From assembly GCA_951799445.1 (NCBI GenBank), contig OX637290.1:26840987-26904986 (forward strand): a DNA stretch of 64,000 bases. Direction: 5' to 3'. Below, piece by piece: positions 40,498-63,075 of the stretch. Positions within the stretch are counted from its first letter, which is position 1. Each line of letters starts with the position of its first letter. The notes below the pieces were generated by a model. It did not search any database. It was given only the letters and a program-made list of their open reading frames with translations, and was not told the DNA's origin. A program made the position numbers and the translations under genes. The DNA is from Pseudisothecium myosuroides (taxonomy: Eukaryota > Streptophyta > Bryopsida > Hypnales > Lembophyllaceae).

Positions 40498-40513
40498 CAG
40501 GGTTGTCACACCG
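40498..40513 (+). repeat. hAT left terminal inverted repeat
   Basis: CAGGGTTGTCACACCG, mirrored at 63029-63044 with two mismatches. Directly preceded by the target duplication CCTGAAGG. Confidence 0.85.
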
Positions 40514-40837
40514 CCCAGACCGCCCGCCTGCCCGCCCGATTCGCCCATTTGGTAGAGGTGTTGGCCGTCCGATGTAGTCAACGCCCGATTGACTTTTCGA
40601 CAAGGTAAAAACATGTAGACGTGGATTTACCTTGTCCACAGTGACAGACACTTGGCTGCCAGCGCGGTTCAGGGCGTGGACGTAAGCAGGTTGGGGGCAC
40701 AGACGTTATCTTGGGCGGCGATGTAAAATGGTGTGGACGCGGACGCATGCACGGGCGCGGACCTTAGTCGGGTTGGGGCGTGGACTCTCTGTCGGGCGTG
40801 AATGTTTGTCGGGTGGGGCGCGGACGCTGTGGCCGAA
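40514..40837 (-). promoter_or_regulatory. Left subterminal motif array of hAT
   Basis: GGGCGCGGAC-type boxes (gggcgtggacgt, gggcgcggacct, gggcgtggactc, gggcgcggacgc) recur every ~20 bp, especially at 40676-40830. They are the reverse complement of the boxes at the right end, giving the mirror symmetry typical of transposase-binding subterminal repeats. Confidence 0.7.
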
Positions 40838-41176
40838 TTGAACCCTGAAGGTCCAAGAAAAAAGTTCAAAAAATTGAAAAAAAAAATTCCCTCTCCTAAC
40901 CGTAGGATCCTTCACCTCACTAGTATGAGAATGTGTGGAAAAAATTCCAAAGTTTAGGATTCACAAATTGTAAGATATCTGTTTTTAAAGTGAAAAAAAC
41001 AAGTTTTTCAAGACAATGGAGGTTTAGATGTTTTGTTTTTGAACCTTGTTTAACTTAAGTAATTTTGCACTAGATGGTTTTGAGCTTCCAATCTTTATAG
41101 TGAAGAATTGAGTTGAGAGTCTACGGAAAAAAAATAATGAAATAATTAATTTTCATTCTTAAATTTTTTTATTAAG
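40838..41176 (+). mobile_element. TTAA-family fragment inside the hAT
   Basis: 'ttgaaccctgaaggtccaag' resembles the TTAACCCCTAAAGG left end, and the following ~330 bp match the left third of 39594-40497 and 1734-2671. The other end is absent. It lies just inside the subterminal array. Confidence 0.6.
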
Positions 41177-41435
41177 TTTGTTAGGGTTATGGTTGTATCA
41201 TTTTAGAATTTGGACATGTATAGATCACCTTCTTCTACTTGATGCCAGGGAAAACAAATAAAAGAATTGCATACAATAGTATTTTGAATATATCCATAGG
41301 TATATATATACAGGATGGCGTTCAGCTGATGCCAAATATACATGTTCCTCTATGAGGATTACAAGTGAACTATAATCCTTGCCTTCAACCTAACTATCAT
41401 ATGCTAAACTTTCAAGAATGAAAACAAGAAAATTA

Positions 41436-43019
41436 CTATCTTCGGTAACAACACTCAGGCATACTCCAACAGAATGGTGTCATCCTCAATTTATCAAGAA
41501 CCTCCGGGATGGACGCCCTTTCTTGTAGATCCTCTATTTGGAGGCTATGCAATTTCGATATTAGGTGTTTATATTGCCACAGCCGTTCTTTGTTGAAATA
41601 AATTGGATCCCAATCTTCTTTCCAAATCCGAGCTGCTATCCATCCTGCTGCATGTGCATCAGCAGCTTTGGAGTATAAGTGTTTTTTTTCCATGACCTCA
41701 AGCGAGTCTTCTGAGCCTTGGTCACCGTATACAAAGAACAATTCTGGAGCAGCAAACTGACGGACTTTTTTCGTATCCTGAACTTCTTTCTCAGTTCGAT
41801 AAACATATCTTGACGGCGCTTTTTCCACAACTCGACTTGAAAGTCCCCAATCACAAATCCCCAAATATACTGTATTCTTTTTCCATGGAGCAGAATGGAG
41901 CAAAATATTGGATGTCGATATGTCATTGTGTATGTAGTTAGCCTCGTGGCATTTCCCCACGATAATAAGTAATGACAGTGCTAAGTGAGTGCGATTTTTG
42001 CGGTGTGTAGCGACCCACTGCAGTTCCTCCAATGTCAACACTATATCATTCATGTTCAAAATTTCCTCCTCGCTCGCATTTGAGGGAACTGTGGAATCAA
42101 ACTTGCATAAAAAAGAAATTAAAGATCCTCCATTCCACCAAAGCGAATAGCCTTACACTGTTTTTGGATGCATGTATGTGAGTCTAATGATGCCTGGATG
42201 CTGTACCGGACATCCCGTAGCCTCCATCAACATATTGCAGCGTTTTTCCTTTTCGTTTAGTGTCTTCAAAATCTTCCCCGCAAAATCCATCCAGCTGGGA
42301 ATGTTTGAAAGTTTGGTAAGTCGCACCTTCCTGACGGTCCCGTATGCACCTTCCGTCTTTCGCCCCGGCATTTGTATCACTTTAACTGATGGTGCTAGCC
42401 AAAACATCGATCCGCTCACACATTCAGTCAAAATTTTGTCTTCCACTGTTTCCTTCCATGGTTGTTTTTGTTTCTGGCAACTTACACTAAACTGTCGACA
42501 CCATGTTTGAACCATGCGTAATTTTGAAGCAAACTCTCTATCTGCTTCATCCTAGTTGCTCTCGTCTTCCCTTTTTTTGGTACAATAGCGCCAATTTTCC
42601 ACAAGATTGGTAGTAAGTTGTACCACCGTGTTATCCAAGAACTCTGAGTGTAACGAGTAATCTGAGTAATTATTGAATTGCTCTGACTCAGCTAACTTAT
42701 TCTCCAGCTCTTTCCGCAAATGTTCTATCAGCGCATTGTAACCAATGATGTTCCTGTTCACATAGTTCCTCTCCATTGATTCAATGCTCCGCACTTTGTA
42801 CCACTCCACCAATATTAACCTACTTTCATGTAAGTAGGGTTGTGGAGGCCAATCTGGGCTCGGCGGCTTCTTCGCCCTCTTCTTCCCTGATGATGATGAA
42901 GGCCTCGATGAAACTCAGGCCATTAACGTGTCTGTTGGTGGAAAATCTTCTTCATCAGGCCTATCTAAATCCACATACATCGGACGCTTCCCCGATGAAG
43001 CAGTCCTTTTTGCTGCCAT
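41436..43019 (-). pseudogene. Protein-kinase-like cargo gene, three in-frame stops
   Basis: A single frame of 528 codons runs from ATG 43019 to 41436, broken only by TGA (42915-42917), TAG (42552-42554) and TAA (42153-42155). Kinase landmarks appear in order: a glycine loop GAYGTVRKV (about residue 224), the VAIK-type lysine in FAGKILK (about 249), catalytic loop IHNDISTSNILL (HND in place of HRD, Asp and Asn kept, about 364-371), DWG in place of DFG (about 390) and FAAPELFF as the APE motif (about 424). The first ~200 residues have a basic Ser-rich start and no domain I know. A TATA box lies ~170 bp upstream. If functional in another copy it would probably be an active Ser/Thr-type kinase; the group is not identified. 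Confidence 0.75.
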
Positions 43020-43185
43020 TTTCAAAAACAATACTTCGTATTCGTTGGAAAAAAAGGCAAAAGAACCGGGTATGCTGTTAGGTCCAAGCCCTAAACTCCA
43101 CCAATCTCCCTAATTAGGCCACAAAGTGATCTAACCTGGGAGGCATCCGGAGAGGGCTTGGCAAGGGAGAATGAAGGGGGAGGGG

Positions 43186-43193
43186 ATTATATA
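43186..43193 (-). promoter_or_regulatory. TATA box of kinase-like gene
   Basis: TATATAAT on the minus strand, about 170 bp before ATG 43019, with the GC motif array directly upstream (43194-43620). Confidence 0.55.
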
Positions 43194-43620
43194 GGCCCCC
43201 GCCCCGACAGCCGCATGCGCCCCTGGCTAAGTTCCCGCCCCTCCCATAGCGTTCCCGCCCCGATCCCAACAGCGCTCCATAGCCGCTCGATTACGTCTCC
43301 GCCCTTGCGCCACTACGTCCCCGCCCAACTCCACCAGTCCGCGCCCGTTCCCAATAAGTCCCCGCCCGACCAATTGCGTACCCGTAGAGCTCGACTGAGT
43401 CCCCGCCAACATCCGCATGCACCCGTTTATACGTTCCCGCCCCTCCTCACAGAGTTCCTGCCCCGACTGACAGAGTTCCCTTACGTCCCCGCCCGAGTTT
43501 GTGAGTCCGCGCCCGTCCATTTCCGTTCCCGCCCGGATTGATTGCGTCCCCGCTTAGACACTGCGTGCCTCCATTCTGTCCCCGACCGACCAATTGAGTC
43601 CCCGACTAACGGATGTCAAA
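43194..43620 (+). promoter_or_regulatory. GC motif array at kinase promoter
   Basis: Boxes such as gtccccgcccgac, gttcccgcccct and gtccgcgcccgt recur about every 20 bp, the same motif class as the hAT subterminal arrays. The long open frames through it are artefacts of the repeat. Confidence 0.65.
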
Positions 43621-46260
43621 TTTCACTCCATCACTTAAGCATTTGGTTGCACTCCTTCCCCATTTTTTAATCACAAGTAAATCCCCACTCAAACATCTAA
43701 AATTTGACTCCATCACTTAAGTATTTGGTTCCACTCCCTCCCCATTTTTTTAATCACAAGAAAATCCCCACTCAATGATATAAAATTTGACTCCATCACT
43801 TCAGTATTTGCTTCCACTCCCTCCCCATTTTTTTTTCCCAAGTAAATCCCTAGTCACATTCAAAATTTGACTCCATCACTTAAATCTTTGGTTTCACTCC
43901 CTCCCCATTTTTTTAATCACAAGTAAACCCCCCTCCCAATTTTATCAAACTTTTTCCCATCCATAGTGAACAAAGAATTGCGTCCCTTTCATATATCAAT
44001 TGCCATAACTATAAAGACAAGTAGGCATCGTCAAAACAATTACAAATGTAAGAAGCTCAAACAGCACGACAAAAATCGACAAAAATTCTTATGCCAAATA
44101 AAAGCATTGATCAACAGCTATAAACATCTTTAGTGCCTCGACTTGTCTTGGCAGTTAATTAAATTTACAGGTGTTGAGCAGTGCTAGGTACAACCATTCT
44201 TCAATTTCGAAAATGAAGAATGCACCACATTGTAAGATTCGAACCCATGACCTCTAGGAAAGAAAGAGGACTCCATGTAGCTACAACCCCGTAGCTGAAA
44301 TGGTTGGTTGGACCTTCATGCTTTAGAATTTGTTTCTTCAAATCTTATTGACCTCACTTGCAATTGCAATCGATTAAGTCCACGTCTGACCCGACTAGGT
44401 CCACGTCCATTTCGAATGAGTCCACGCCCATTTCGAATGAGTCCATGCCCATTTCGAATAAGTCCACGCCCGCATCCCATTCCACCACTTAAGGATTTGG
44501 TTCCACTCCCATTTTTTTTTCCACAAGTAAATCCCCATTCAAACATTTAAAATTTGACTCCATTACTTAAGCATTTGGTTCCACTCCCTTCCCATTTAAA
44601 AAAAAAAAGTGAATGCCAACCCCATGATTTAAAATTTGACTCCACCACTTAAGCATTTGGTTCCACTCCCTCCCCATTTTTTTTATCACAAGTAAGTCCC
44701 CACTCAATGATTTAAAATTTGACTCCACCACTTAGGCATTTGGTTCCACTCCCTCCCCATTTAAAAAAAATAAGTGAATGCCAACCCCATGATTTAAAAT
44801 TTGACTCCACCACTTAAGCATTTGGTTCCACTCCCTCCCCATTTTTTTTATCACAAGTAAATCCCCACTCAATGATTTAAAATTTGACTCCATCACTTAA
44901 GCATTTGGTTCCACTCCCTCCCCATTTTTTGGATCACAAGTAAATCCCCACTCAAACATCTAAAATTTGACTCCATCACTTCAGTATTTGCTTCCATTAA
45001 TCCATTCCCTCCCCATTTTTTTTATCACAAGTAAATCCCTAGTCAAACCTTTCAAATTTGACTCCATCACTTAAGCATTTGATTCCACTCCCTCCCTATT
45101 TTCTTAATCACAATTGAAATAGTAAATTCCCAATCAAACATTCAAAATTTGACTCCATTACTTAAGTCTTTGGTTTCACTCCCTCCTAAGTCTTTTTTTT
45201 CACAAGTAAATCCCCTCCCAATTTTATCAAACTTTTTCCCATCCATAGTGAACAAAGAATCGCAACAACTATAAAGACACAATATATCAATTGCCACAAC
45301 TATAAAGACAAGTAAGCATCGTCAAAACAATTACAAATGTAAGAAGCTCAAACGACATGATAAAAATCGACAAAAGTCCTTATGCCAAATAAAAGCTCTG
45401 ATTAACAGCTACAAACATCTTTAGTGCCTCGACTTGTCTTGGCAGTTAATTATATTTGTAGGTGCTAATCAAGGCCGGGTAAGATTCAAACCTATGACCT
45501 CTAGGGAAGAAAGAGGACTCCATGTCACTACAACTCCGTAGCTCAAATGGTTGGTTGGACCTTCATGCTTTGGGATTTGTTTCTTCAAATCTTATTGACC
45601 TCACTTGCAATTGCAGTCGATTAAGTCCACGCCCGGACCGATTAAGTCCACGCTCGAACACGAATAAGTCCATGCCCAGACAAGAATAAGTCCACGCGCG
45701 CATCCCATTCCACCACTTAAGCATTTGGTTCCACTCCCTCTCCATTTTTTTTTCCACAAGTAAATCCCCGCTCAAACATTTAAAATTTGACTCCATCACT
45801 TAAGCATTTGCTTCCACTCCCTTCCCATTTAAAAAAAAAAAAGTGAATGCCAACCCCATGATTTAAAATTTGACTCCATCACTTAGGCATTTGGTTCCAC
45901 TTCCTCCCCATTTTTTTATCACAAGTAAATCCCCACTCAATGATTTAAAAATTGACTCCACCACTTGGGCATTTGCTTCCATTCCCTCCCCATTTAAAAA
46001 AAAGAAGTGAATGCCAACCCCATGATTTAAAATTTGACTCCATCACTTAAGCATTTGGTTCCACTTCCTCCCTATTTTTTTTTATCACAAGTAAGTCCCC
46101 ACTCAATGATTTAAAATTTGACTCCACCACTTAGGCATTTGGTTCCACTCCCTCCCCATTTTTTTTATCATGAGTAAGTCCCCACTCAATGATTTAAAAT
46201 TTGACTCCACCACTTAGGCATTTGCTTCCACTCCGTCAGTCCCCTCCCCATTTTCTAACG
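43600..46260 (+). repeat. Tandem array A, ~80-bp units in 1.26-kb higher-order repeats
   Basis: Units consist of 'tttgactccatcacttaagc', 'atttggttccactccctccc' and 'atcacaagtaaatccccact'. Some alternate with 'gtgaatgccaaccccatgat'. A longer block with 'ccatccatagtgaacaaaga' and 'atggttggttggaccttcat' recurs at 43967/44290 and 45239/45538, giving a higher-order period near 1.26 kb, each block ending in a few gtccacgcccg boxes (44395-44480, 45620-45700). Non-coding. Confidence 0.85.
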
Positions 46261-46369
46261 TATGGTTAGAAAGTTATGGATTTCTGAATTATTTTTTTTT
46301 GGTTTTGAAAATGAATTTTACTTTTGTTTTGGGTGTGGCAACGGAGATTTTCTGGTAAATAAGAGATAA

Positions 46370-46580
46370 TGTCCACGCCCGGAACGGATTACGTCCACGC
46401 TTGGACCTGCACCCGTCCACGCCCGGCCGCGATTACGTCCGCGCGGTGGACCTTCCGTCCCCGCTTGGGACCTTGAGTCCCCGCCCTGTCGCGATTACGT
46501 CCCCGCGTCGGTCCTTCCATCCGTGCCCGGATGCGATTATGTCCACGCGCAGCGCTTGCACCCCCCAGCGGCTATATAAG
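46370..46580 (+). promoter_or_regulatory. GC motif array and TATA box of RING cargo gene
   Basis: About ten boxes (gtccacgcccgg, gtccgcgcggtg, gtccccgcttgg, gtccccgccctg) lead directly into TATATAAG at 46573-46580, 142 bp before the ATG at 46715. Confidence 0.65.
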
Positions 46581-46714: not shown

Positions 46715-48936
46715 ATGGAGACACCACAGAGGCTGACGAAGGCAGAGAAAGACAAAAATCGCTTACGGCCGGGACAGAAACACCGCAAGCGGCTACACGT
46801 ATTGAGAAATCCAAATAAACTTGCATTTAGGGGATGGAGGGAGGAGCCTGATCCATGGAGTGCTGAAATATGTGCTCAGTACATTGAGTGGTGCCATATT
46901 GACAAGGTCTTTCCAGAAGAACGACACAATTTTCATCGTCGTTTTCACAAAGCCAACTTGAAGCACTGCAACGACCCAGAATTCAAAAATCGTTGCATTG
47001 AGGTCTACCAATTTTTGTACAACCAGCCCCTCGTGAAACGAAACAAAGTGAATCTTTTCATTGCACGAGGTGTCCAAGCCGAAATCAAGCTTGAAAAGCG
47101 AGTAGATTGGTCGACCTTGAAAGATGTTGGCTCAAATGTTATAGTTCCAACTCCTGCCAACGGATTCATTCCAAAGGCAAAAAAGTTTCCAGAGGGTGGT
47201 TTGGGTAGTGTCCGGACGCAAATTGATTCAGTTGACAACTACCAAACCAATGATTCCGCTACAGATAGCGACTCAGATGGAACTCATACTCCACCATGTC
47301 CACTTGGCCTTAAAGAGCAGCAACGAGCCAAGAGAAGGAGGGCACTACAAACTGCTTTGGATGCAACACAAGGAAATGTAGCAACGGGCGAAGATGACGT
47401 GGCGCGGATAGCAGCTGCTACTGTTGCGGCGGATACTATCAACAATTTGAAGAATGAATTGGGCCAAAAAGATGACATCATTCGTGACTTGTCTGCTGCG
47501 TCCGCCCAATTTGTTACACAATTGAAGGAGAAGAACGACCTACTTGCAAAGCAAGAACGTGACATACAAGAGCTTTGGCAAGCTTTGGAAGCTGCTACGA
47601 TGAGAACTGAGGGTGCTGACCCAAGAGGGCATCGTGAAGGCATGCATGAGGAAGCAGATGGCATGGAAATACCTCAGATGCAAGAAAATATTGTGACTCA
47701 TGCTGTAGAAGCTGCTGCATCCATGACACCAACACAAGATTCACTGTCGTTTGACACTTTGAATGCCATTATGAGTGTCGCAGTTGTGGAAGGCGAGGGG
47801 GGGCAAACACTTCCAAATACTGAAGAACTCACAAAAGTACGTGCCCAAAATGTTGATCTTCAAAGTCGTTTGGATGCATTGGTAGAGCAATATTATCAGT
47901 GGAAGTTGGCATGCATCTTCACAGCGGATCAGAACAAACAAATGGCTGCGGAGTTCAAGAAGGTTGCCAACAATTACTTTCAACACAATCAAGAAAGGGT
48001 TTTCGGCTTAATGTCATGGGCCAACGTAGATGACCTTTTCAACCTCGCGGAGATGGCAACCCAAAAATTGTGGGCAATCAAACCATCATTGACTGGTCCC
48101 AACACAACTGGGATTTCAAAAATGCGATCTCTTCGCTTCCGGGCAAGCCAATGTTGTTGTGGCCAAAGCCTTCAACCTTCGTGTTTGACGGTACTTCGTG
48201 CCCCATTTGTATGAATCCATTTGGCCCCGAAGGTGCAATGCACTTAGGCACATGCGAGCACCTCTACCACCCAATTTGCTTGATCAGCTTGATGATAACT
48301 CGTAGACGGTGTGCAATATGCAAGGCTCCTTTCCACGAGCGCTTGTACGAGCTGTTTGGGTTGGTTTCATATATGCCTCCAAATTGGAATTCGATGTATA
48401 CAATGCCCCTCATGATTCCAAGGTATGGGGACAAGACCTTGTGTAAAGTTGGCGTTACAAGCACCACTCTTTGCAAAAACTGCATCTCTCTGATGAATGG
48501 GGTTGGGAGACAAATCCAGATGAAGTTATGCGAGTGTGCGAGAATTTGATCCCAATGAAGGACAAGTTCAATCTCGGAAAACGGAATTTCTTCTACCAGT
48601 GCTTCAATGGACATTGGGACGAAGATACTCAAAAATTCCGTATGGGACCTCACCCCAAATCATGGCTATGGAGCGTTGATGGAGTCCGTATCACTAATGA
48701 TGATGGAATTCGGATCATAGACGAATTCGGATATGAAATACCTTCCCAATCCGAGATGCTTGCCAGATCGGAATCCGAGTGGAGAGAGATTTTTAAGTCC
48801 GATGCAATAGATTTTTTGCTTGACGAACACAGTCCAAGGACTCGACAAGCTCTTCGACAAATGCAGAACTCACAGTTTATGAGGGCTGTATTGGAAGTGG
48901 ATGGACCAGCAAGACGAACCCGGTCTAGAGTTTGAC
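46715..48936 (+). pseudogene. YIEWCHIDK-domain/coiled-coil/RING-H2 protein, frameshifted
   Basis: From ATG 46715 (METPQRLTK) the protein has a basic start and a new domain at about residues 22-137 (KRLHVL, LAFRGW, YIEWCHIDK, DPEF, RVDWST). A linker with an Asp/Ser stretch and an Arg-rich tract follows, then a helical coiled-coil part (about 240-320 and 390-460). After a frameshift near 48060 comes a RING-H2 finger, C-x2-C-x14-C-x-H-x2-H-x2-C-x10-C-x2-C (48199-48321), then a C-terminal region in a third frame (shift near 48365, apparently an AT duplication) with a TAA at 48444-48446. The original product was about 740 aa. RING fingers usually recruit E2 enzymes for ubiquitin transfer; the target is unknown. 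It has an N-terminal paralog at 53255-54349. Confidence 0.75.
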
Positions 48937-50540
48937 GACTTCGTCTAGGCTCAGACGAAGACCACATTGTAGAAGCGGGGGGAAACGACAACGAAGCAGG
49001 CCCGAGTGGCACGGCAGGCAGCCCCATGAATATCGATTGACTGCACTCCCGTGTATTATGGTGAAGAAGAAGGCAAATCGGATAGAAGTATATAGCAGTA
49101 GACTTTAGACAGGCTTATAGAATATTTTTTTCAGTGTAAATTACTATATACGCTAATGTACGGCTACTTGTAGAATGTACAGTGATCACCTCATACATTT
49201 TTTTTCAATTTTGTATTGTATGATGGATATGAAATACATATATACTTCTCTTTTTATTATGTGCAAGTGTGCTATTTGGAATTGTTCATTTCATAGACAT
49301 TAGAAATAACTATGAAGCCACTACAATATCTTGTTACGTAACATTCCTTTTACAGGCATAAATGCCAAAGGGAACACCTTCCTTTGAGACTCAAATATGA
49401 AACCTAATTCATCCTTATATATTTTGTGAAGGAAACCTTTTTGTTTTAAAACTTGCTCCAAAATAAATAGTTTAAGTGCCTCCCTAGTAATATGTTATTT
49501 GCTATTTCTAAAACCAAAAGAATAATCCCTTGTGAGGAATGAATTCAACCTCTGAAGTATAAGAAGTGGTGACCACATGGATTTCCAGACATTTGCATTT
49601 GAAGTGCATAAACTTCATTTAGTTGCACCTTGTCCAAAAAGATTTGAAGTCTTCGAATTTGCCTACCTCAAATTGTTGGCAATAAAAAATGAAGGAGTGG
49701 CTTCAAAGTATTGGACAAATTTCAAGCAAAATAGAATTCATTTTCTTATTCTAAGTTTCTAACAATTATATTTTGAAAGCCTCCCTCTCTTTCCATTTTT
49801 TCTTTTTCTAACAATTATATTTCAAGCCTTCTACGTGGATTATCCCCTATGGAGTTCGATTTCAAAAAAATTAATATTTGAAGTGTCTCCCGAGTCCCCA
49901 TCAACCCCTTCTTTCTTGTTTCCAACAATTAAAATTACAAAGCCTTCCAAGGAGGTAATGTAGATACTCCACATTAAAAAATAATGTATGCTTAATGGAT
50001 TACACCCCAACCTTTTTTTTCTTCATCCAATCATTAAATGTTTAAAGCCTTATGAGAAAGAAACCTTTGAAGTCCAGATGACAAAAAAATTTAATAGTTC
50101 AAGTGCCCTCCTCTTAATCCCAACTTCTCTACTTGGTAATTTAAAGAATTAAAAGTATAAATGAAGCCTTGCTAGGAAAAACAATTTGCTCCAAAGGAAT
50201 TTTTTAATTGTTTCTAAGCTTTTCCTATTAAATCCTATTTCTTGAATATGAACACTTCAAAATCGAGGACATTATGAATAAAAAAATTAAAAACATTCTA
50301 CTTCAAAGAAGGAAAAATAAATAAAAGGGCCTTGGACCTCATCCTCTCTTTCCAAATTCGATAATGAAGTCAAGAAATGCTTGTCTAGAAATAACATTTT
50401 TAGGCAAAGGAAGTCCAATAAATCCCTCCGGAAGTTTACATGTCTAATTAAAGAATAGCATTTAATCTGAAACACAACGTAGTATTTTAGGCATTTGAGC
50501 TCAACTTGGGGCGTGAAATCATTTGAAAATTGTAGTAGTT
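48937..50540. other. 3' flank of RING gene, AT-rich
   Basis: Contains the presumed 3' UTR (AT-rich from 49100) and about 1.3 kb of AT-rich sequence with no supported gene. Confidence 0.5.
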
Positions 50541-52735
50541 GAACTCCTTCATTTGCATATTCAATGATCCAAACTTAGGAGCAAGAATGAGCTTCCCCGA
50601 ATTTAATGGAGACTACTTTGAATAGGGAGGGAGAATCCCATGCCGAGGTCAAAGTGGCTGGGACTGGGCGGTCTGCTGGATTCTTGAGTCCGCGCCCTTA
50701 CGTCCACGCCCGCTCCTACGTCCGCGCCCGCGATTGAGTCCCCGCCCTAAGTCCGCGCCCGCGATTAAGTCTGCGCCCCTACGTCCGCGCCCGAACAGTC
50801 CCGAAAACCAGGAGCATTCGGGAGTGAACCAAAACTCCTTTAAGACTGCGCCCATGAGTCCGCGCCCAGACAGCCCTGAACCCTAAACCCTAAAACCCTT
50901 CAAATACTTGGATTGGCATTCATTTATTTATTTTAAATGGGGAGGGAGTGGAACCAAACGCCTAAGTGGTGGAAACAAATTTTAAATCATTGAGTGGGGA
51001 CTTACTTGTGATAAATAAAATGGGGAGGAGTGGAACCAAATGCCTAAGTGATGGAAACAAATTTTATATCATTGAGATGGGGACTTACTTGTGATTAAAA
51101 AAATGGGGAGGGAGTGGAACCAAATGCCTAAGTGATAAAAACAAATTTTTAATCATTGAGATGGGGACTTACTTGTGATAAAAAAAATGGGGAGGGAGTG
51201 GAACCAAATGCCTAAGTGATAAAAACAAATTTTAAATCATTGAGATGGGGACTTACTTGTGATAAAAAAAAATGGGGAGGGAGTGGAACCAAATGCCTAA
51301 GTGATAAAAACAAATTTTAAATCATTGAGATGGGGACTTACTCGTGATAAAAAAATGAGGAGGGAGTGTAAGCAAATGCTTAAGTGATGGAGTCAAATTT
51401 TAAACCATGAGGTTGGCATTTACTTTATTTTTTTAAATGGGAGGGAATGGAAGCAAATGCCCAAGTGGTGGAGTCAAATTTTAAATCATTGAGTGGGGAC
51501 TTACTTGTGATAATGAAAATGGGGAGGGAGTGGAACCAAATGCTTAAGTGGTGGAGTCAAATTTTATATCATTGAGTTGGGATTGACTTTTTTTATTAAA
51601 ATTAAATGGAGAGGGTGGTGAAGGAACCCGGACCAATTGATGAGAAGGTACTTGAACTCCTTCATTTGCATATGCAATGATCCAAACATGGGAGCAAGAA
51701 TGAGCTTCTACGAACTTAATGGAGACTACTTTGAATGGGGAGGGAGAATCCCATGCCGAGGTCAAAGTGGCTGGGAATAGGCGGTCTGCTGGATTCTTGA
51801 GTCCGCGCCCGTACCTGCGTCCCCGCCCTGCGTCTGCGCCCTTACGTCCACGCCCGAACAGTCCCGAAACCCAGAGGCTTTCAGCAACTGCCTTAAGTCC
51901 GCGCCCTAAGTCCGCACCCGAACAGTCCCAAAAACCAGGAGCATTCGAGAGTGAACCAGAACTCTCCTAAGTCCGCGCCCTAAGTCCGCGCCCGAGCAGT
52001 CCCCAAAACCCAAAGTGAATGCTTCTAGATGTTTGAGTGGGGATTCAGTTTTGAAAAAAAAATAATTGGGGAGGGAGTGGAAGCAAATGCTTAAGTGGTG
52101 GAGTCAAATTTTAAATCATTGAGTGGGGACTTACTTGTGATAAATAAAATGGGGAGGGAGTGGAACCAAATGCCTAAGTGATAAAAACAAATTTTAAATC
52201 ATGGGATTGGCATTCACTTATTTTTTTTAAATGAGGAGGGAATGGATGCAAATGTCCAAGTGATGGAGTCAAATTTTAAATCATTGAGTGGGGACTTACT
52301 TGTGATAATGAAAATGGGGAGGAGTGGAACCAAATGCCTAAGTGATAAAAACAAATTTTAAATCATGGGGTTGGCATTCACTTATTTTTTTTAAATGGGG
52401 AGGGAATGGATGCAAATGCCCAAGTGATGGAGTCAAATTTTAAATCATTGAGTGGGGACTTACTTGTGATAAATAAAATGGGGAAGGAGTGGAACCAAAT
52501 GCCTAAGTGATGGAAACAGATTTTATATCATTAAGATGGGGACTTACTTGTGATAAAAAAAATGGGGAGGGAGTGGAAGCAAATGCTTAAGTGATGGAGT
52601 CAAATTTTAAACCATGAGGTTGGCATTTACTTTATTTTTTTTAAATGGGAGGGAATGGAAGCAAATGCCTAAGTGGTGGAGTCAAATTTTAAATCATTGG
52701 ATTGGCATTCACTTTATTTTTAGTCCCACGCGAAA
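50541..52735 (-). repeat. Tandem array B, reverse orientation of array A
   Basis: The same ~80-bp units as array A but reverse-complemented ('ggggagggagtggaaccaaa', 'tgcctaagtgat', 'ggggacttacttgtgat'). A higher-order copy starting 'gaactccttcatttgcatat' recurs at 50541 and 51654 (period ~1.11 kb), each leading into GC motif boxes (50685-50880 and 51795-52010). Together with array A it makes a large inverted repeat around the RING gene. Confidence 0.85.
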
Positions 52736-53254: not shown

Positions 53255-54349
53255 TCAGAATGGTGGCATGCGTGCTCGAGCCTCGAGGTCAGCAATATTC
53301 TTCTTGTATGCTTCCTCCTTAATACAAAAATCTCTTTTCATGATTTCTATGTGCATATCGAGTTCATCCTTTTCTTGACGGAGTTGCAAGACTTCAATTT
53401 GCAGGTCTTCAATCATTTTGAGCAAGGATGCGTTGTCTCGGTTGGACATCCATGTTTCCTCTTCCACCGAATGTAATAACCCTTGTGCTACCATGGGAGG
53501 CTCTGACATGGTTCCTTCGGTAGAATCCCTTAGTGCCGCTTCGTCCCACATGTCAAGTTCGGCGAGGTGTTTGTCAAAATTCTCAACTGGATCGAATGGC
53601 GGCGTAGGTACTACACTGTCATTTTTTGTTTCTTTCTTTTCAACATGAACATCTTCAATGCCTCCGTCTTCTACTAGAGACTCCCAGTAACAACGTAGTT
53701 GAGTGTCTCGCAGACTTTTAAGTCTGTCATCCCTCTCTTCTTTCGTGCATCCTGATTTGAGGTCAACATCAGAGTCTTCGGACCACTCGACACACACATC
53801 TAGAATGTTTAGTATGTCTTTTTTTGCCTTACTGAGGCCCCCGTATTTTTTATACTTCCGTTCTTGTGGGATGTCAATGCCCTCTAGAGCTTTCACAATC
53901 TGCATCGAACCTGTCTTTATCGTACTCCAGTCTACTCTACGAAGGAGTTTCTTTTCCGCATACACCATACGCAAGATGGCAAGACTGCATTCGTTCCTAC
54001 CTACGTATGCGGTATTATAGACGTGTTGAGACACTTGGATGCATCTTTCAAGGAACTCCGGGTCTTTGCAGTAGTGAAGGTTGGCCACTTGGTTCTTGCA
54101 GTGTTTCTTGTGCTCACTATGTGGAAACAATTTATCTATGTGGCACCATTCAATGTATTTGTCATAGGTTTTGTGGGTCCAAGGTTGCGGTTCAGTTTTC
54201 CAACCAGCAAAAGCAAGGTTGTTCACATCGAGTAGGATATGCAACCGCTTTTTGGATGCCTTGCAATTGCGACTCCTCCCAACATCACGAGGCCTCATAG
54301 TACAAGGAACAAGTACTGTTACATTCGATGCTTCACTTTGTTCGGACAT
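53255..54349 (-). CDS. YIEWCHIDK-domain coiled-coil protein, intact
   Basis: Uninterrupted 364-aa frame from ATG 54349. Residues about 31-145 align with residues 22-137 of the 46715 gene: KRLHIL, LAFAGW, EPQPW, YIEWCHIDKLFP, NLHYCKDPEF, ERCIQVSQ, AEKKLLRRVDWST. The middle is acidic and charged. The last ~70 residues form a heptad-rich coiled coil (LLKMIEDLQIEVLQLRQEKDEL). No RING finger follows; the frame stops after MPPF. No known family is recognised. The basic start of the domain could bind nucleic acid, but that is only inference. It is divergently arranged with the transposase, sharing the motif array 54530-54840. Being open while its neighbours are broken, it may still be expressed or has been recently selected. 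Confidence 0.7.
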   Translation of the reverse strand: MSEQSEASNVTVLVPCTMRPRDVGRSRNCKASKKRLHILLDVNNLAFAGWKTEPQPWTHKTYDKYIEWCHIDKLFPHSEHKKHCKNQVANLHYCKDPEFLERCIQVSQHVYNTAYVGRNECSLAILRMVYAEKKLLRRVDWSTIKTGSMQIVKALEGIDIPQERKYKKYGGLSKAKKDILNILDVCVEWSEDSDVDLKSGCTKEERDDRLKSLRDTQLRCYWESLVEDGGIEDVHVEKKETKNDSVVPTPPFDPVENFDKHLAELDMWDEAALRDSTEGTMSEPPMVAQGLLHSVEEETWMSNRDNASLLKMIEDLQIEVLQLRQEKDELDMHIEIMKRDFCIKEEAYKKNIADLEARARMPPF

Positions 54350-54529
54350 ACTTCACAAAGATGTTAGCAAAGGCTAAGTACAAGCCAGGGTCAGTGGGTC
54401 ACAAGTAGCGAAATGGACGAGTAGAGTGATGCCACATGTGTCCGGGCTGCCGAGGTCCAAAGCCCCAACTTAGAGCTCAAAGGCGAATTCCAAGATTTTG
54501 GGGCTGACTAAGGCAGCATTGGAGATTGT

Positions 54530-54853
54530 GCCTGGCCGGGCGGGTACTTATGGTACCTAGCGCGCGCGTTCTGCCGGGTGCGCATTCAGTCCGCGCCCCG
54601 ACCCCGCGTCTGGGCGCGGACGTTACTGAGCGGTGACTTACAGCCTGGCGCGGATGTATGCGATTAAGTTTCCGCCCGTGCCTTCCCGTCCCCGCCCCTC
54701 CCTCTGCGACGCAATTACGTCTACGCCTGAACTGCAGTGTCCGCGCCCTGGCCCACTGCGTCCGCGCGTATTCCTCCAGCGTCCGCGCCAGTACATTAAG
54801 TTCACGCCCATACGAAGTAGGTCCCCGCCCCTACAAGAAAACAGTATATAAAC
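54530..54853. promoter_or_regulatory. Divergent promoter with GC motif array and TATA box
   Basis: Boxes gtccgcgccccg, gtccccgcccct, gtccgcgccctg, gtccgcgcgtat and gtccgcgccagt repeat every ~20 bp between the two divergent genes. GTATATAAAC at 54844-54853 is a TATA box for the transposase, 264 bp before its ATG. I find no clear TATA for the minus-strand gene. Confidence 0.6.
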
Positions 54854-55107: not shown

Positions 55108-56185
55108 ATGGCAAGTTCGCGGAAGCAAACAAAACAGTGGGAACCGTGGTACGAGTTCTCAGATTGTGGGACTAAAGTGATTTGCAATTTCTGCAATGCG
55201 ACATTCAGCTACAAACGTGAGCGTGCTTTTGTGCATTTCGGATACAGGTCAAAGTCAGAGAGGTCGTTGTGTCGTAATATACCTCGGGCTGTGCGACAAA
55301 AATTTTCCAAATGTGGAAACTTTGATCCACAACGGATGAGTGCAGAGGACATGCAGGATGCTCTGTCAGCTCCCAGCGGGCCATCCCAAGTACCTCCAAC
55401 AGGTACTTCGAGCCAATCCACTCAAAATGGAGCAACGGAAGGGACGACTAGAGATGGGGGGAACACGAATGAATCAACGCAACCTCCTCACAGATCCTCA
55501 AGTCTAGCTGCATCAAATTCCACAAGATCTGGCCCATTACAACAGCAACGCATGAGCGATGCCCTCAATATTGCAAAGAGGAAGGAGTTGGATGAAAAGT
55601 GGGCGAGCTTTTTCTATGAAGCGAATGTGCCATTTAATGTGGCGAAGAATCCAGCGTTCATCGAGGCGGTGAAGGCAACGTCATTGGCACGATTTAAATA
55701 CTCTCCACCATCCTACCATAAGTTGAGGACTCAATCAATTGAACCGAAGAAGTTACAGATTGAGAAGGAGATTCAAGTGAAAACGGCTTTTGCGGTGAAA
55801 AATTATGGGGTGTCAATATGCACTGATGGTTGGGATGATGTCAATCGACGTCCCCTCATGAATGTAATGATGTCATGCCCCACTGGTGACGTGTTCCTTG
55901 GATCCATAGACACTTCCGGGCATACGAAAAGTATGATCTATATAGCAGATCAATTGAAAGTATTCATCGAGAAGGTGGGTGCCAAAAACGTAACTCAAAT
56001 TTGTACGGACAACGCAGCAAACATGCTTGGGGCAGTGGATGATCTTATCATCACATACAAGCACATTTTAAGTAGGGTGTTTGGCGCACGCATTGGATCT
56101 ACTGTTGGAAGACTGGGCCAAGGTCGATCAATTTAAAGATTTAATTCTCAGGGCAAAAAGGGTGTGTCAATACATTAGGGGCCAT
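55108..56185 (+). pseudogene. hAT transposase, N-terminal part (BED, DUF659)
   Basis: From ATG 55108 (MASSRKQTKQ) a BED zinc finger occupies about residues 10-60 (WYEFSDCGTKVICNFCNATF, with later His and Cys). A Ser/Thr/Gln-rich linker and the DUF659 catalytic region follow (VSICTDGWDDVNRRPLMNVM and QICTDNAANM, the acidic residues expected of the DDE core). One extra base in a GGG run at about 56075 shifts the frame just before the CLAHALDLLLEDW motif. The frame then reaches IRGH at 56185, where the nested element begins. It cuts and rejoins hAT ends in active copies; this copy is dead. Confidence 0.88.
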
Positions 56186-57387
56186 TGTCGCAGCACAGAG
56201 TAAGTGAATTCCCTATTATACTCCCAAAAACCACTCTAAAGCATAACAAAATGACTCTAAAGATCGAACCCACGAGATTCTGTGAAGTGTCTAGCTCTAT
56301 TCTCAACTTAAGCTCAGCCAGTATCCAATTTCTACTTTCCGGTCCTAGATCTAAAACCGGAAACAACAACACACCGAAAACAACGACCAGACCTTTCTCT
56401 ATTTCTTCCGGCCTGTCAAGCTATTCGGTCCTGTAAAACTTCCACAACCCAGGATCCTAACACTTCTGATCCTGAAACTCCTCTGGACCGATCCGATCCG
56501 GTCCTTTCACACGTACTCTCACTCCACTCCGGTTTAATTTTGCCTCTGTTTCACCATCAGAGGGTTCGCCGCTTGCTTTTGAGAGTGGCAGGCCCGCCAC
56601 TCCTTCCGTGACTTATAGTGGCTGAAGACCCACTTCTCTAATCCACTACTTTCTACACTAGCGCGGATCCGGTTTGATCTCTCACAACCACCCGGACAGC
56701 GATCCGGTTGGCAGGTCACACAAAGACCCCCCCGTACGATCCTCTCATACTACAACGACCTTGATGCCAAGTTCCCTCCGTGCAAAGTTAGGTGGTTACA
56801 AGTGAACTCGTCCGTTCCAACATCAACTAAAGCTCTTCCGTTTACCAACTAGGGCAGCGAGACCTCACGGGAGATCGGGCACTCAACCGGATTTCCTATC
56901 CAGGAGTTCTAGCGCGACTAAGGACTCCTTCCCTATCCGCCTAGCCTAACAACGGCTTTCTCGCCCAGAATCGTGAACTGAAGAGGTGCTGAGGAACTGA
57001 AATCCGCTCCCAACACTTAGAATACCCACTCACATGCACATAAGAGCAAAACAAACACACTAAGGGGAGAAATCTCTCTAGAATCTGCACACATTTTCCT
57101 AACTCCTCACCAAAACAGCCCTGCCACGCGCGGGAGAGACGTACAACAAGAAGTCAATAGAAAATGCACAAAAACTCAAGGGAAAAGACTCCCAGTCTCC
57201 TTTGCAGAGACTGACTATATACATTTTAAAACTCAAAAAGTCAACACAAAGCGGCCCGGAAAGTCCGCGCGGAACTTTCGGTCCCCGCCGAGCCGGCTAG
57301 ACCGGAAAACATCCGATCCAGACCAGACACATCCGGATCAAATCCGGTCCGGTCCTAACTAACAAATATTTACAACTAAAATCCTAA

Positions 57388-59157
57388 CTATCCTACCATA
57401 ACCGGATCTACTCCTTGATCCGTTCCTTCGTCCATGACTTCGTCTTCGCCTTGGTGCACGCTCTGATCTTGATCCTCACCCTGATCTGGGGTCAGATCCA
57501 TACTTTGATCTTTCCCCGGGTTTAGTGTGGGACTTCTGGGCGGGTCCGTTCCAAGCTGCTCGAAAACGTCCGTCAGGTTCCGGTTCCGCTCCCCTGTTTC
57601 ACATTCTGGGAGATCCGGTGACGAATCCAAGTTGATGGTGTGCGCGAGCTTCCTCCCACTCTTCTTTGACTGGGGAGTCCGATCCTTTCCTTCCGTCGGA
57701 ATGCCCACGTTCGGAAAAGACCCGGGCATCGAAAGGTCGGACAGATGGAACGACCGTGACAACGTCACTCCGTTCAGCTTCCTGCTGCTCTCCTCCATCC
57801 GGTTTGCAGCCTCTCGCGCTTCCATCATGACTAACTCCACCTTCTCGGAGTAGTCCGTCAAAATCCGGACCAACCTGGTCCCGGATATTTTATTCTCCTT
57901 GAGGACTCCCTCGTCAAACAGTTTGGACTTGGTGACGGCCTCTCCGGATGCTCCGAATGTGGCCTTCACGTCCTCTGCTACTTTCCGGGTAGCCTCTGCC
58001 ATCTCCCGGGTGGTAGCCATGTCCTCCTTGAGGAGCAACATTTCCGTTTTCAACGACTCGTTCTCCTCTTGGAGTCGTCGTATCTCCGCTTCTTGCTTCC
58101 GGATCTCATCCGGGCTGGAGATGAAATCTGCAACCACTCCCGCCAGGTTGCTGTCTGCTGGTGCTCCCACCAGCTCGCTGATCTGGTTCAGAATCAGCTT
58201 CTTTATCGTCCAGTCTGCTCGTACATCGCTCAGGATGTTGATCAGCTGGTGGAACGGATCCGTCGGATCCGATCCGGAAGGGCCCGGTTCTCCAGAAACC
58301 GGTTTCTTCCCTGGGTTGGAGGTCTCAGCCGGAGGGGTTGGGGTTCCTCTCCGGTGAGGAGGAGGCGTCTTCTGCTGCTTGTGCTGCGGCCGGAGTTGCT
58401 CCTCCTCTTCTTCTTCTTCCTCCTCGGAACCGGATACTTCTTCCTGTTCTTCTTGTTCCGATTCCGATTCCCCATACTTCAAGAGCGACTCCTGCATCTT
58501 CCACTCCTTCTCCTCCGTATCCGTGAGGAGTTGATTGTGCTTGTACAGATGGACGAGGTAGGGACTCAACGGAGTCGGTCTACTTCCTCCGATCTTCGGA
58601 ATCAGACGGTTGACCAGATCGAATAAAATCCTGGCCCAGTCTACTTTCCATTCCCCGCTCAGGGCTCCGAAAATGAGGTTCCCGATGGCGATGGTCACCC
58701 TCGTCGGCTTATCCGGGTGGATGATCGGAACCAGGAACTGTAGGAGGTTCCGATGCCGGTCGTCCAGGCAATCCGCGACCGCATGCCCATCCTTGGAGTC
58801 CACGTTGCACCGGAATTTTCCCCGAGTGTATCCTTCCTTCGATGAGGCCATCCCTCGACCTCCGGACCGGAATTCGTACACGGCCTTCCACATCTCCTCC
58901 GTCCAACTTCCCGGACTTCCGCGGATGGTCTTGTCGAACTGATTCGAGAGTCTTCCCAACAACTCTTGAATCATCTGTTCCTCCCTAAACCCCCAGGGTT
59001 TATCGATCAGTCCTCCGCAGCCCATCTTGGCGAGATCCTCTATCAGGTTGTCCTTTTCCTTCTCGTCTGTTGGGATGATCGGACACACCTTCTGGAGTTT
59101 TATTTCTACTGCGGAGGAACTGGACGGCCTTGCTCTACTCTTGCGGAGCTGAGGCAT
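57388..59157 (-). CDS. Unknown 589-aa protein of the nested element, intact
   Basis: The open frame starts at ATG 59157 (MPQLRKSRARP); the upstream GTG is not used as a start. The first ~230 residues are a globular part with repeated charged/aromatic motifs (GGLIDKPWGFREE, VPIIHPDKPTRVTIAIGNLIFG, LSPYLVHLYKHNQLL). A Glu-rich tract (about 240-265), a Pro-rich linker, a second folded part, a coiled coil (IRRLQEENESLKTEMLLLKED, about 365-400) and a C-terminal Asp/Gln/Gly repeat tail (TPDQGEDQDQ, HQGEDEVMDEG) follow. No transposase catalytic motif is evident. It may be a gag-like structural protein or captured gene. A TATA box at 59435-59444 lies ~280 bp upstream on the same strand. Confidence 0.65.
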   Translation of the reverse strand: MPQLRKSRARPSSSSAVEIKLQKVCPIIPTDEKEKDNLIEDLAKMGCGGLIDKPWGFREEQMIQELLGRLSNQFDKTIRGSPGSWTEEMWKAVYEFRSGGRGMASSKEGYTRGKFRCNVDSKDGHAVADCLDDRHRNLLQFLVPIIHPDKPTRVTIAIGNLIFGALSGEWKVDWARILFDLVNRLIPKIGGSRPTPLSPYLVHLYKHNQLLTDTEEKEWKMQESLLKYGESESEQEEQEEVSGSEEEEEEEEEQLRPQHKQQKTPPPHRRGTPTPPAETSNPGKKPVSGEPGPSGSDPTDPFHQLINILSDVRADWTIKKLILNQISELVGAPADSNLAGVVADFISSPDEIRKQEAEIRRLQEENESLKTEMLLLKEDMATTREMAEATRKVAEDVKATFGASGEAVTKSKLFDEGVLKENKISGTRLVRILTDYSEKVELVMMEAREAANRMEESSRKLNGVTLSRSFHLSDLSMPGSFPNVGIPTEGKDRTPQSKKSGRKLAHTINLDSSPDLPECETGERNRNLTDVFEQLGTDPPRSPTLNPGKDQSMDLTPDQGEDQDQSVHQGEDEVMDEGTDQGVDPVMVG

Positions 59158-59434
59158 GGACACGAGCTGTTCTAAACCGGATTCTCACTGAGGCTACCTT
59201 TCCCTCTCCTAGCCGCACGTCCCGTTTCTCACCTTCGCTCTTCCGATCTCAACCGGAATACCTCTAAACCTGCAACACAAATTAAAGCGCTGCGCGCCCT
59301 AACACACTAACACGCACCCACAAACACAAACACAAAACAAGAAAGCAGAGCGCTGGGAAGAGAAGCTAAGTACAAGCTGGAGCGAGATTTCCGCAAACGA
59401 AGATTGAAAAAGAGTGGCCACTGGATTGGTCAGC

Positions 59435-59444
59435 CTATATATAG
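59435..59444 (-). promoter_or_regulatory. TATA box of nested-element gene
   Basis: CTATATATAG, symmetric, about 280 bp before ATG 59157 and beside the CCGGAT-rich end of the nested element. Confidence 0.55.
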
Positions 59445-59661
59445 TCATGACCAAATCCGTTCCTGACCCAATCCGATCCAACTCAGATCCGCTCCAACTC
59501 TAATCCGGTTTAGATTCAGATCGAATCCGGATTGTCACCTATTCCGTTCCGTTACTAACTTCCGGTTTCCTGTTACCTCTTGCTTGAATCCGGAGACCAG
59601 ATCACGGTTTCCATTCAAAGATTTAGATAACTTACAAAAACCAAAAATTCGCACTGCGACA

Positions 59662-62084
59662 GCCATCATGCGACAATGTCCACTTTTCGCGAGTTGAGCC
59701 CGAACAAACAACTGTTAGTACCCGCGGAAACTTGATTTGCTTGCAATTTCCTCATGCTGCAACGTTTGGTCTTACTAAGACCACAACTAGAGGCCTTGGT
59801 TCAACAACCACGTGTTCACAATTATGTTGCGGGGCTACGAAATAGACAAAATGGGGAGCAGCCACGTACCTTGGCAGATGTTGTGGTCGACACCATCAAT
59901 AATCTTGGCTTCTGGCAACGGTGCGTTAACTATGTATACATAGTGGAAGATGTATTGAAGGCCTTGCGAGTGTTTGATGGTCGCGAAGCTGCCATGGGCA
60001 AGGCATGGCTCACAATGCACAACTTGCGAGGACATGTGTTCTCATTGAGAGAGCGTCCCTTCTCTCTGCCGCCTCAAGTGGCTGACGCTCTGGAGGCGTC
60101 CTTCGACGAAAGATGGGCAATGGCATATTCTTGATCTTCACTATGCAGGTGCACTATTAAACCCATACATCAGAGATCACCCGCATCTTAAGACTGATGG
60201 AGTTGCCCTTCGAGCGTTGTATCGGGTCATTCGTAAACTAGAGGGTATAGTGGGTGTACGATTTGATGATGTCTTGGCGGAATTAACACAATATGAAGAG
60301 GGCGTTGGACCGTATAGCCCTGAAGAATCCCCCAACATCCGTGAGGCCGGCATGCTCCCCCACCAATAGTGGCATAGGATTGGAGACCGCACCTAGTCAA
60401 AGATTGTTGTCCGTGTTCTATCCCTCACGTGTTCGGCATCGTATTGTGAACGGAATTGGAATATGTATTCTTTTGTCCACAATAGAAGCCGAAAACCAAT
60501 AGCCGTGTCCTTCGTCAGAAACCTAGGGCTGATCCAGTTCGTTGGTATGACGCAAATGTTTACTCGGAGGATTCCGATCCGGATGCCCTTGGCCCCGTTC
60601 CAGTTGGTGAACCTAATCGCGTATTTAATGCAATGCATGCAGAGGATGAGGCTCAAGACAACATAGAAGTGAACAGAGCCCCTCCGGCATACCAAGTGAA
60701 CCGTGATCTTTGGAGGGAGGGTGCCGATCACTTTGAAGAAGCAAGGAACTACTACGGGGACGGATATGATGCGGAGGACAATATTCTCCATGATTGTTGG
60801 GGTCCCATGCCCCATCGCAGTCTTTCACCTCCTCCCCATGAAAATGAAGGTGTTGCTGGGGTGAACAATTTATCTTCTTCTTCAGAGCGCGATGAACCGA
60901 ATGCAACAAATCTTGACAATCCTGATAACCCCGACGACGATGACAACAATGACGACAACCATCCCCCTAGAAATAATGGCGGAAATAGAGATGACCGCAA
61001 CGATGGCAATGGAGGGAATTTGGGTAACCGTACAACTCCAAACAATCAAGGGTCTGTCCACGATGGCGAGAGTAGTCAAGGACGTGGTGCGGCGGGTGGC
61101 CGACGTGGTGGGGCGGGTGGTCGATGTGGTGGATCAAGCAGCCAACATGGTGGCAATACATTTGTATCAGGGTGCTATAGACCAAACATTGGGAGTACAT
61201 CAACAACTGAACCTACTGCCACAAATCCTCCCAACATTGGTGGTGGGAGGCCTTTACACCGCGAGCATGTACAAGACAATAGTTGACGAACACACAATCC
61301 TTCGAACGTGCCAGCTTGTGCCTCAATTCCTGTTGTTGGTCAAAGATCAGGACCGTCGGCACAACGTTCCACCCTTCCTATCCAAGCTACTGACCCCATG
61401 GACATTTTCAACTTCAATGAAGGAATAAGCCCTGTGGAGAATGCTGAGGTGACCGTGAATAATGTTTCAGATGCTACTAGGGGTGGTAGACCCCCTCAAC
61501 CTCCTTGTCTTGGTCCTCACCCAGTGGGCCAGTATAGGTTGTCACGTCCCGTTTCCCGTGGAGGAAGGGCCACAGGTGCTCCGTCATCATTAAGGGCGCC
61601 AAAACGTCCTCTACGGGGAATTGGAGTACGACGTCCTGATGAGGTGATAGCGCCGTTCCTAGAGACGTACACTCCGGGCCCCACCTTATCAACCCCAGAG
61701 TTTATTGTTCCTAGAGTTCAAAGGGGCCCAGCTATAAACTCTGATGCAGAGGATCCTGCTGCAAAGCGACACAAGAAAATAGTGAGTACGAGGAATAAAA
61801 AAGGTGGAACCACTAAGCTCCGAAATGAAAATTCAGAAGTTGAGGGTCCTCGAACATCGATTCATGGTGATGAAGAAGGGACACTCGGTAGTGCAGAAGA
61901 TGAAGACGAAGAAGAGGACGAATACGAGTTTGACACCGACTGTGATGAAGCACCAGCAGATGAGGATGTGCGCATTCCAGATGCTTGTTTGGTAGGACCT
62001 GCTACCCAAAAACGCCGTAGATCAAATCGTTTGAATAATGCAAGGGAAGCAACAGTAGGTGTTGAAGGAAATTCAAGCACTTGA
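59662..62084 (+). pseudogene. hAT transposase, C-terminal part and long tail
   Basis: Resumes with HATMSTFREL and the PAET-stop-FACNF motif (TGA at 59733-59735 in the normally conserved TRFA). The helical insertion region and LHYAGALLNPYI follow after a frameshift near 60118. The hAT_C dimerisation region has stops at 60367-60369 and 60394-60396 around HRIGDRT, then SASYCERNWNMYSFVHNRSR. A deletion then removes about 15 residues before TNSRVLRQKPRADPVRWYD. Unusually, a tail of roughly 500 residues follows: Asn/Asp/Gly-rich, an Arg-Gly-rich patch (GRGAAGGRRGGAGG), TGA at 61284-61286, an acidic run and a basic cluster near the end (QKRRRSNR), a possible nuclear signal. Confidence 0.85.
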
Positions 62085-62409
62085 AAGGAAGATCCAGTAG
62101 GAAGAGCAAGAGTGCTTTAGATAACCAATCTGTATTTTATGGAAGTATGTGTTCATTGTATTGTGTGGTTTGCAATGCACAAAATCTATAAACATTTTTG
62201 GTTTTCATGAAGAATTGTGCATTTGTAATTTTGTACTCGTGTTGAATTTGTGATGTATTTTCAATCCGTTGGTCAATTGTAACTGGCAGCATATGCTTAA
62301 CATTTCTTAAAGGATAAGATTAATTGAAAGTGCCACAAACTTTTATTATCAACTAATTTCATCCTAATTCCATGAAAAAAAAAACCTTAAATCCTTAAAA
62401 CATAAAGCT
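62085..62409. other. Transposase 3' UTR region
   Basis: AT-rich 3' flank of the transposase gene before the right subterminal array. No gene. Confidence 0.5.
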
Positions 62410-63028
62410 ATTTCAAAGTCCGCGCACCAGCCCAGCAGGGTCCACGCCCGAGCCCAGTAGAGTCCACGCCTAGACATACTAAGTCCACGCCCAGACGCTG
62501 CACGTTTCAGCCTGTCAAAGTCCGCGCCCGGACAACAACGTTTCCGCCCGAACCATTAAATCCCCGCCCCGACATTTGACGTTGCCGCCGCTCAGAGTCC
62601 GCGCCCATGATTATGCGTTTCCGCCCAACCAAACACGTCCGCGCCCAGGCACTATACGTCCGCGCTCGTCTAAGTCCACGCCCATATAGCAGAGTTCCCG
62701 CCCGCACTTTAGCGTCTGCGTCCAGCAACTTACCGTCCGCGCCCGTCTGAGTCCACGCCCGTACAACAGAGTTCCCGCCTGCGCCCTGGCCTGTTCAGTA
62801 TCCGCCCACATGAATTCACGCCAAGACAAGGACGTTTCCGCCCCCCCTTGCGTCCGCGCCCGATTCCAACATGGAATTCCACGTCTTCAGACACCACGCC
62901 ACGTCATGCCGTAAAGGTAAATTAGGGTAATTTTTTTTACTTGCCAAAAAAATTTAGCCCGCTGAAATTTGAAGTCGTCCAGACCGTCCAGTTGTCCCGT
63001 CCGGGCCGTCCAGTGACCCTGCCTCGTC
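62410..63028 (+). promoter_or_regulatory. Right subterminal motif array of hAT
   Basis: I count about 20 boxes of gtccgcgcccg, gtccacgcccg, gtttccgccc and ttcccgcccg types, spaced 20-24 bp, at 62415-62870. A TIR-proximal segment with cgtccag/ccgtcc repeats (62970-63025) follows. Orientation is opposite to the left array. Confidence 0.75.
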
Positions 63029-63044
63029 CGATGTGACAACCTTG
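63029..63044 (-). repeat. hAT right terminal inverted repeat
   Basis: CGATGTGACAACCTTG, the reverse of the left terminus with two mismatches, followed directly by CCTGAAGG, the target duplication. Confidence 0.85.
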
Positions 63045-63075
63045 CCTGAAGGGACAACAGTCCTTTAGGGATTAA

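Follow-up and report, generated by a model that had tools for sequence, protein, structure and literature searches.

The stretch analysed here, hereafter the window, comprises 64,000 nucleotides of contig OX637290.1 of Pseudisothecium myosuroides (Bryopsida; assembly GCA_951799445.1, positions 26,840,987 to 26,904,986 of the forward strand). Between nt 40498 and 63044 the window holds an insertion of 22,547 bp with matching ends, which interrupts a TTAA miniature inverted-repeat transposable element (MITE). The insertion encodes a kinase-like protein (nt 41436–43019, minus strand), a RING-finger protein (nt 46715–49037, plus strand), a short paralogue corresponding to the N-terminal part of the RING protein without the RING (nt 53255–54352, minus strand) and a hAT transposase with a DUF659 domain (nt 55108–62084, plus strand). 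The block very probably represents a degenerate copy from a clade of giant hAT transposons that are self-contained and have linked kinase and RING genes and a system of box motifs.

The ends, the duplication and the other copies define the insertion as a giant hAT element in plus orientation, which we place in subfamily A of the clade. It is flanked by a perfect 8-bp target site duplication, CCTGAAGG, at nt 40490–40497 and 63045–63052 (both plus strand). CARGGTTGTCACA is matched exactly at both ends, forming short terminal inverted repeats of the CA...TG kind characteristic of hAT elements; the left repeat CAGGGTTGTCACA occupies nt 40498–40510 (plus) and the right repeat CAAGGTTGTCACA nt 63032–63044 (minus). 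With up to two mismatches allowed, a single further match to CARGGTTGTCACA exists in the window, at nt 17800 with two mismatches. The 8-mer CCTGAAGG alone is weak evidence, because it has 3 matches in the window against 2.04 expected by chance. Its third match, at nt 40844, was considered as the end of a short element of 346 bp; this was rejected, since the alignment places it in the terminal repeat of a degraded TTAA MITE fragment of the host type, which lies inside the element (about nt 40841–41177, plus strand). Joining the flanks in silico restores a complete TTAA MITE, with which four further copies in the window are collinear. The first-pass annotation, made from the letters of the window, had described the duplication, the matching ends and the TTAA host, and all three were recovered here. 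Its size of about 19 kb without a nested insert also holds, as removal of nt 56186–59661 leaves about 19.1 kb.

With its kinase, RING and transposase frames all broken, the copy in the window is dead. The kinase gene, whose start codon was placed by eye near nt 43019, has in-frame stops at nt 42552–42554 and 42153–42155 and a frame change upstream of nt 42914. Compared with P0001, the RING gene contains two internal stops and has changed frame twice. The transposase gene carries frame changes, a TGA at nt 59733 and a nested 3,476-bp insert. In the short paralogue, the ATG at nt 54349 opens an intact frame of 365 codons. With no intact transposase frame, the window copy could move only when aided by another copy. 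These broken frames had passed without mention in the first-pass annotation, which had correctly recognised a kinase-like gene; the two genes it had assigned to an unknown family are now identified as the RING-finger protein and its shorter paralogue.

The kinase domain matches PF00069 (E = 4.2e-8, 33.4 bits against a cut-off of 31.7). In an alignment of 13 relatives, K247, H362, N363, N369, D388, W389 and G390 are invariant, and D364 is kept in at least 90%. The catalytic motifs HN(D)..N and DWG are conserved across these relatives, and the protein is predicted to be a kinase. The RING protein, of about 750–850 residues, matches zf-RING_2 (E = 3.7e-6, 27.5 bits against a cut-off of 27.3) and is a probable ubiquitin ligase by this domain. 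The AlphaFold model of the RING family is poor, with a mean pLDDT (predicted local distance difference test) of 54.6 and a pTM (predicted template modelling score) of 0.28. A structure search with this poor model returned nothing at E ≤ 0.001, and a few weak matches to RING-H2 chains at E = 0.67 with a probability of 0.93. The transposase core matches PF04937 (DUF659) with E = 4.6e-27 in the window, and the same domain is found in its relatives. The hAT dimerisation domain PF05699 is precomputed for many of these relatives, and the broken piece of the window transposase matches P0030.

The decisive evidence for the element is the presence of other copies elsewhere in the genome. The assembly (388 Mb) was searched with both 203-bp ends of the element, and the best 40 of 60 and the best 40 of 62 candidates were scored, so that copy numbers are lower bounds. 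Ends were paired by strand and distance, and 14 pairs, the window included, were examined, with the short pairs L040 and L041 left aside. Duplications of 8 bp flank 13 of the 14 loci, 11 of them perfect (window included) and two matching at 7 of 8 positions (E7 and E8); in E13, the remaining pair, the left end was not recognisable at the expected place. One base of the terminal repeat is altered in E2, E3, E4 and E8. The paired ends are about 7 to 37 kb apart, and much shorter pairs, of about 0.4–0.5 kb, occur too.

Nine copies were read whole, namely the window and E1 to E8 (the gene-match table for these copies omits the RING_P0004 rows). Seven possess the kinase, and the order kinase (−), RING (+), short RING-like (−), hAT transposase (+) is found in six of the nine (window, E2 to E6). 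E1 gave matches to the kinase and the transposase and none to RING. None of the element genes was matched in the non-coding E7 and E8 (L028 and L029, about 8.6 and 9.4 kb). The largest frames of these two copies are inverted pairs, so that the common ends seem to enclose long inverted repeats. E5 is 21,435 bp and E4 23,669 bp long, and E2, E3 and E6 reach 26–37 kb. In E3 the RING gene (775 residues) and the short gene are open, and the kinase and transposase frames are interrupted. The assembly search with both ends, which the first-pass annotation had proposed, thus supports its claim of a giant hAT element moving as a unit. A misassembly fusing unrelated stretches is scarcely conceivable and was rejected; we found nothing in its favour, and the independent copies elsewhere have the same ends and different 8-bp duplications.

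Two distant subfamilies, B and C, display best local protein identities of about 27–46% between subfamilies; the gene content of each was read at one locus. The B locus, on chromosome C10, starts with a CAGGGTTGTC end, placed by eye at C10:426823. An open RING gene of 852 codons (+) comes first, then two short paralogues (− and +, respectively) with a kinase (−) between them, and finally a transposase (+). In the best local alignments, RING is 33 and 46% identical to P0001, the short paralogues reach 41–42%, the kinase matches that of the window at 27 and 35%, and the transposase is 42% identical to P0030. The C locus (C2:10766343–10784392, 18,050 bp) encodes a transposase (+) open for 1076 codons and 45% identical to P0030, a kinase (−) 27% identical to that of the window, and a RING protein (+) open for 790 codons, with identities of 29 and 34% to P0001. 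Perfect 8-bp duplications flank five of the seven C copies checked (C2:43.10M, C7, C4, C10 and C3); for the copy on C6, three bases of the left flank were compared and all match. The left ends of the C copies (300 bp) are 96.0–99.7% identical and the right ends 92.4–95.3%, with 88.7–90.3% and 85.5–90.4%, respectively, for the C6 copy.

Five measured C copies are 18,128–18,275 bp long, and this bears on whether two separate hAT elements could jointly act as the ends of a longer block. Such a composite, or macrotransposon, would fit the mirror-oriented arrays inside the window element. However, the C copies have the lengths just given, six sites in subfamily A share the gene order as well as both ends, and the window element contains no other match to CARGGTTGTCACA with up to one mismatch. 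We therefore rejected the composite, which is very improbable.

The linkage of the genes was examined across the genome, where scores were computed for the best 59 of 725 RING candidates and the best 42 of 428 for the transposase. Merging reduced 93 RING matches to 55 loci and 49 transposase matches to 42. For at least 15 of the 42 transposase loci, a RING locus lies no more than 35 kb upstream, always in the same orientation; 1000 random placements on the same chromosomes, with a guessed length for chromosome C8, gave a mean of 0.21 and a maximum of 3. As only part of the candidates was scored, the count does not imply that the other 27 transposase loci have no RING gene. Among the same 55 RING loci, 26 lie on G000:C11, a chromosome of 16.9 Mb that makes up about 4% of the assembly. 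C11 might be a sex chromosome or an otherwise low-recombining one.

Relatives of each gene, many of them full-length, are present in other public samples; a collection of 5.8 billion proteins contains at least 29 RING, 60 transposase and 19 kinase relatives, fragments included. In L001 (CADCWO010000051.1) 11 boxes precede an open RING gene, about 800 residues in length, that lies about 0.5 kb before a GACAACCCTG hAT end. This contig was deposited as a cyanobacterial metagenome-assembled genome (MAG), and its eukaryotic-looking transposon gene points to probable contamination. P0079 and P0090, relatives of the transposase and the kinase, are filed under a Bacilli bacterium MAG, probably for the same reason. 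Viral contigs searched with the RING and transposase alignments gave no relatives.

These data also bear on Pack-type capture, by which an ordinary hAT element took up host genes and carries them as passive cargo. The frames decay after insertion, dN/dS (the ratio of nonsynonymous to synonymous substitution rates) within subfamily A is not low, and E1, E7 and E8, although flanked by duplications, lack some or all of the genes, all of which capture would explain. However, the same gene kinds stand with the transposase in three subfamilies at the protein identities given above, and RING loci are associated with transposase loci on one strand. Plain passive capture was rejected on these grounds and is unlikely. 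According to the predicted proteins, the kinase and RING accompany a DUF659-type hAT transposase in three divergent subfamilies, and the short RING-like genes in A and B. Since the same gene kinds recur in distant subfamilies, they would represent a conserved accessory set rather than random cargo, and they look like the element's own machinery and not chance passengers. Thus, where the first-pass annotation spoke of a transposon that moves accessory genes, the giant hAT stands and the cargo view is probably too weak.

The box GTCCRCGCCC occurs 34 times in the window against 0.02 expected from shuffles, and all occurrences are within the element. The boxes at the left end are on the minus strand and those at the right end on the plus strand, which bears out the mirror-image subterminal arrays of the first-pass annotation. 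The left-end array (nt 40672–40825, minus) contains four exact boxes, and the right-end array spans nt 62440–62861 (plus). The remaining arrays, all on the plus strand, lie upstream of the kinase gene together with a TATA-like sequence (nt 43231–43534), upstream of the RING gene (nt 46371–46486, with a TATA-like sequence near nt 46570), and between the divergent short-paralogue and transposase genes (nt 54589–54830, with a TATA-like sequence near nt 54847); two extra clusters are located at nt 50688–51993.

Each subfamily has its own box motif: GTCCRCGCCC in A, variants of GAGGTCGCC and GCGGTCGCC in B, and CTGGACGG and GACGGNCAGGCCGTC in C. The layout is constant across the subfamilies, with boxes upstream of genes and close to an end, in A and C to both. 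When ends plus promoters were tested by circular shifts, the p values were 0.0115 for the window, 0.0075 for E3, 0.0130 for E5, 0.0030 for C10 and 0.0195 for C2; these are optimistic because the motifs and gene starts were picked by eye beforehand. The window element also holds arrays of an 83-bp satellite, a left set of three blocks (nt 43618–46234, plus) and a right set in mirror orientation (nt 50935–52721, minus). This satellite and a 78-bp satellite of subfamily B (C10 443356–445890) are clearly related in sequence; the core of the A satellite had no match in the wholly read C copy, E7, E8 or L001.

Several observations weigh against a self-contained clade with its own accessory genes and boxes. 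The box test on promoters alone, equally optimistic, is weak in the window (p = 0.0545) and in E5 (p = 0.148), the values for E3, C10 and C2 being 0.0255, 0.003 and 0.042, and the clusters at 50.7–52.0 kb have no assigned gene. RING would not be needed in cis, because E1 lost its RING genes yet lies between duplications. Pairwise dN/dS among the A copies is 0.47–0.80 for RING, 0.37–1.06 for the kinase, 0.33–0.92 for the short genes and 0.20–0.78 for the N part of the transposase, only mildly below 1, and 0.64–1.91 for its C part with the acidic tail, suggesting constraint that is mild at best; such values are as expected if copies decay after insertion. The right end of the B copy was not found on scanning to C10:467500. 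The sole wholly read C copy has no recognisable duplication and one in-frame stop in its kinase, and the gene set of subfamily C was read in this copy (C2:10766343–10784392), the six others being known from their ends only.

A clade of giant hAT elements nevertheless remains our reading of the window block. Its copies lie as units between CARGGTTGTC-type ends and 8-bp duplications at different sites, with a size of about 18 kb in C and 21–22 kb in A when not swollen by inserts, and the ends and duplications point to cut-and-paste by the hAT transposase. In the mechanism we propose, a DNA-binding protein encoded by the element would bind the boxes; the candidates are the transposase or the N-terminal domain common to the RING and short proteins. 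One such factor may recognise the ends for cutting and also drive or de-silence the promoters. The RING protein, as a probable ubiquitin ligase, and the kinase may regulate the transposase or host silencing factors. The giant hATs of a plant lineage could then be mobile regulons, in which one factor serves end and promoter boxes that co-diverge with it into separate specificities, and the element's own kinase and ubiquitin ligase control transposition or undo silencing; we put this forward tentatively, with somewhat less than even confidence. If true, plants gain a clade of giant DNA transposons with recurring accessory genes and many copies in a single genome. Recent-looking members, 18.1 kb long with perfect 8-bp duplications and near-identical left ends, make a role of the kinase and RING in transposition or escape from silencing testable, and the end and promoter boxes would allow a possible co-divergence of a DNA-binding protein and its sites to be studied.

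The nested insert in the transposase gene (nt 56186–59661, 3,476 bp) has the ends TGTCGCAG and CTGCGACA and is flanked by GCCAT duplications at nt 56181–56185 and 59662–59666. It carries an open reading frame of 598 codons (nt 57388–59184, minus). Relatives of this frame lie inside E6 (83% identical), inside E2 (31%) and just left of the B element on C10, whose left end cuts into one such relative (region G000:C10, about 420411–426824). Outside the element, broken retroelement frames at nt 7201–9182 and 32776–35538 appear by eye Copia-like and LINE-like (long interspersed nuclear element). Rfam (gathering threshold) and transfer RNA scans of the window gave no matches.

Elements of the hAT superfamily are typically a few kb long with one gene. 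The window clade shares with Ac, Tam3 and hobo the 8-bp duplications, the CA-G terminal repeats and DUF659, together with the dimerisation domain in database relatives, and differs in its size of 18–22 kb and its kinase and RING-type genes. The fungal ToxhAT, in the parts of its description available to us, spans about 14 kb from one terminal repeat to the other and contains a hAT-like transposase along with further genes; its authors report that they found no target site duplications, and the known copies derive from one shared element (PMC6737239). In contrast to what those parts describe, the window clade comprises many copies flanked by duplications, and its gene set recurs. On this comparison ToxhAT would be the best structural precedent.

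VANDAL elements are Mutator-like elements (MULEs), a transposon group other than hAT. In Arabidopsis, according to excerpts of two papers, the transposon-encoded accessory protein VANC binds noncoding motifs, which are often tandem repeats and diverge between related elements (PMC5735166, PMC10398659). The subfamily-specific box arrays of the window clade, known here from sequence alone, resemble these motifs as far as the excerpts go, whereas VANC is neither a RING protein nor a kinase. VANC, the accessory protein of an anti-silencing system that removes silencing marks, may be regarded as the best functional analogy.

Starships of fungi are likewise giant elements of eukaryotes that carry genes in addition to the one for mobility. 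They are tyrosine recombinase elements and not DDE-type hAT, whereas the window transposase is of the DUF659/hAT type. MuDR and En/Spm of maize are plant transposons that encode a second protein in addition to the transposase; they belong to other superfamilies, are smaller and have no kinase or RING gene. Excerpts of the top matches in the open-licence PubMed Central literature contained no description of an element such as the present one. By these comparisons, the window clade is a variant of the known hAT kind, with its precedents in ToxhAT and VANDAL/VANC.

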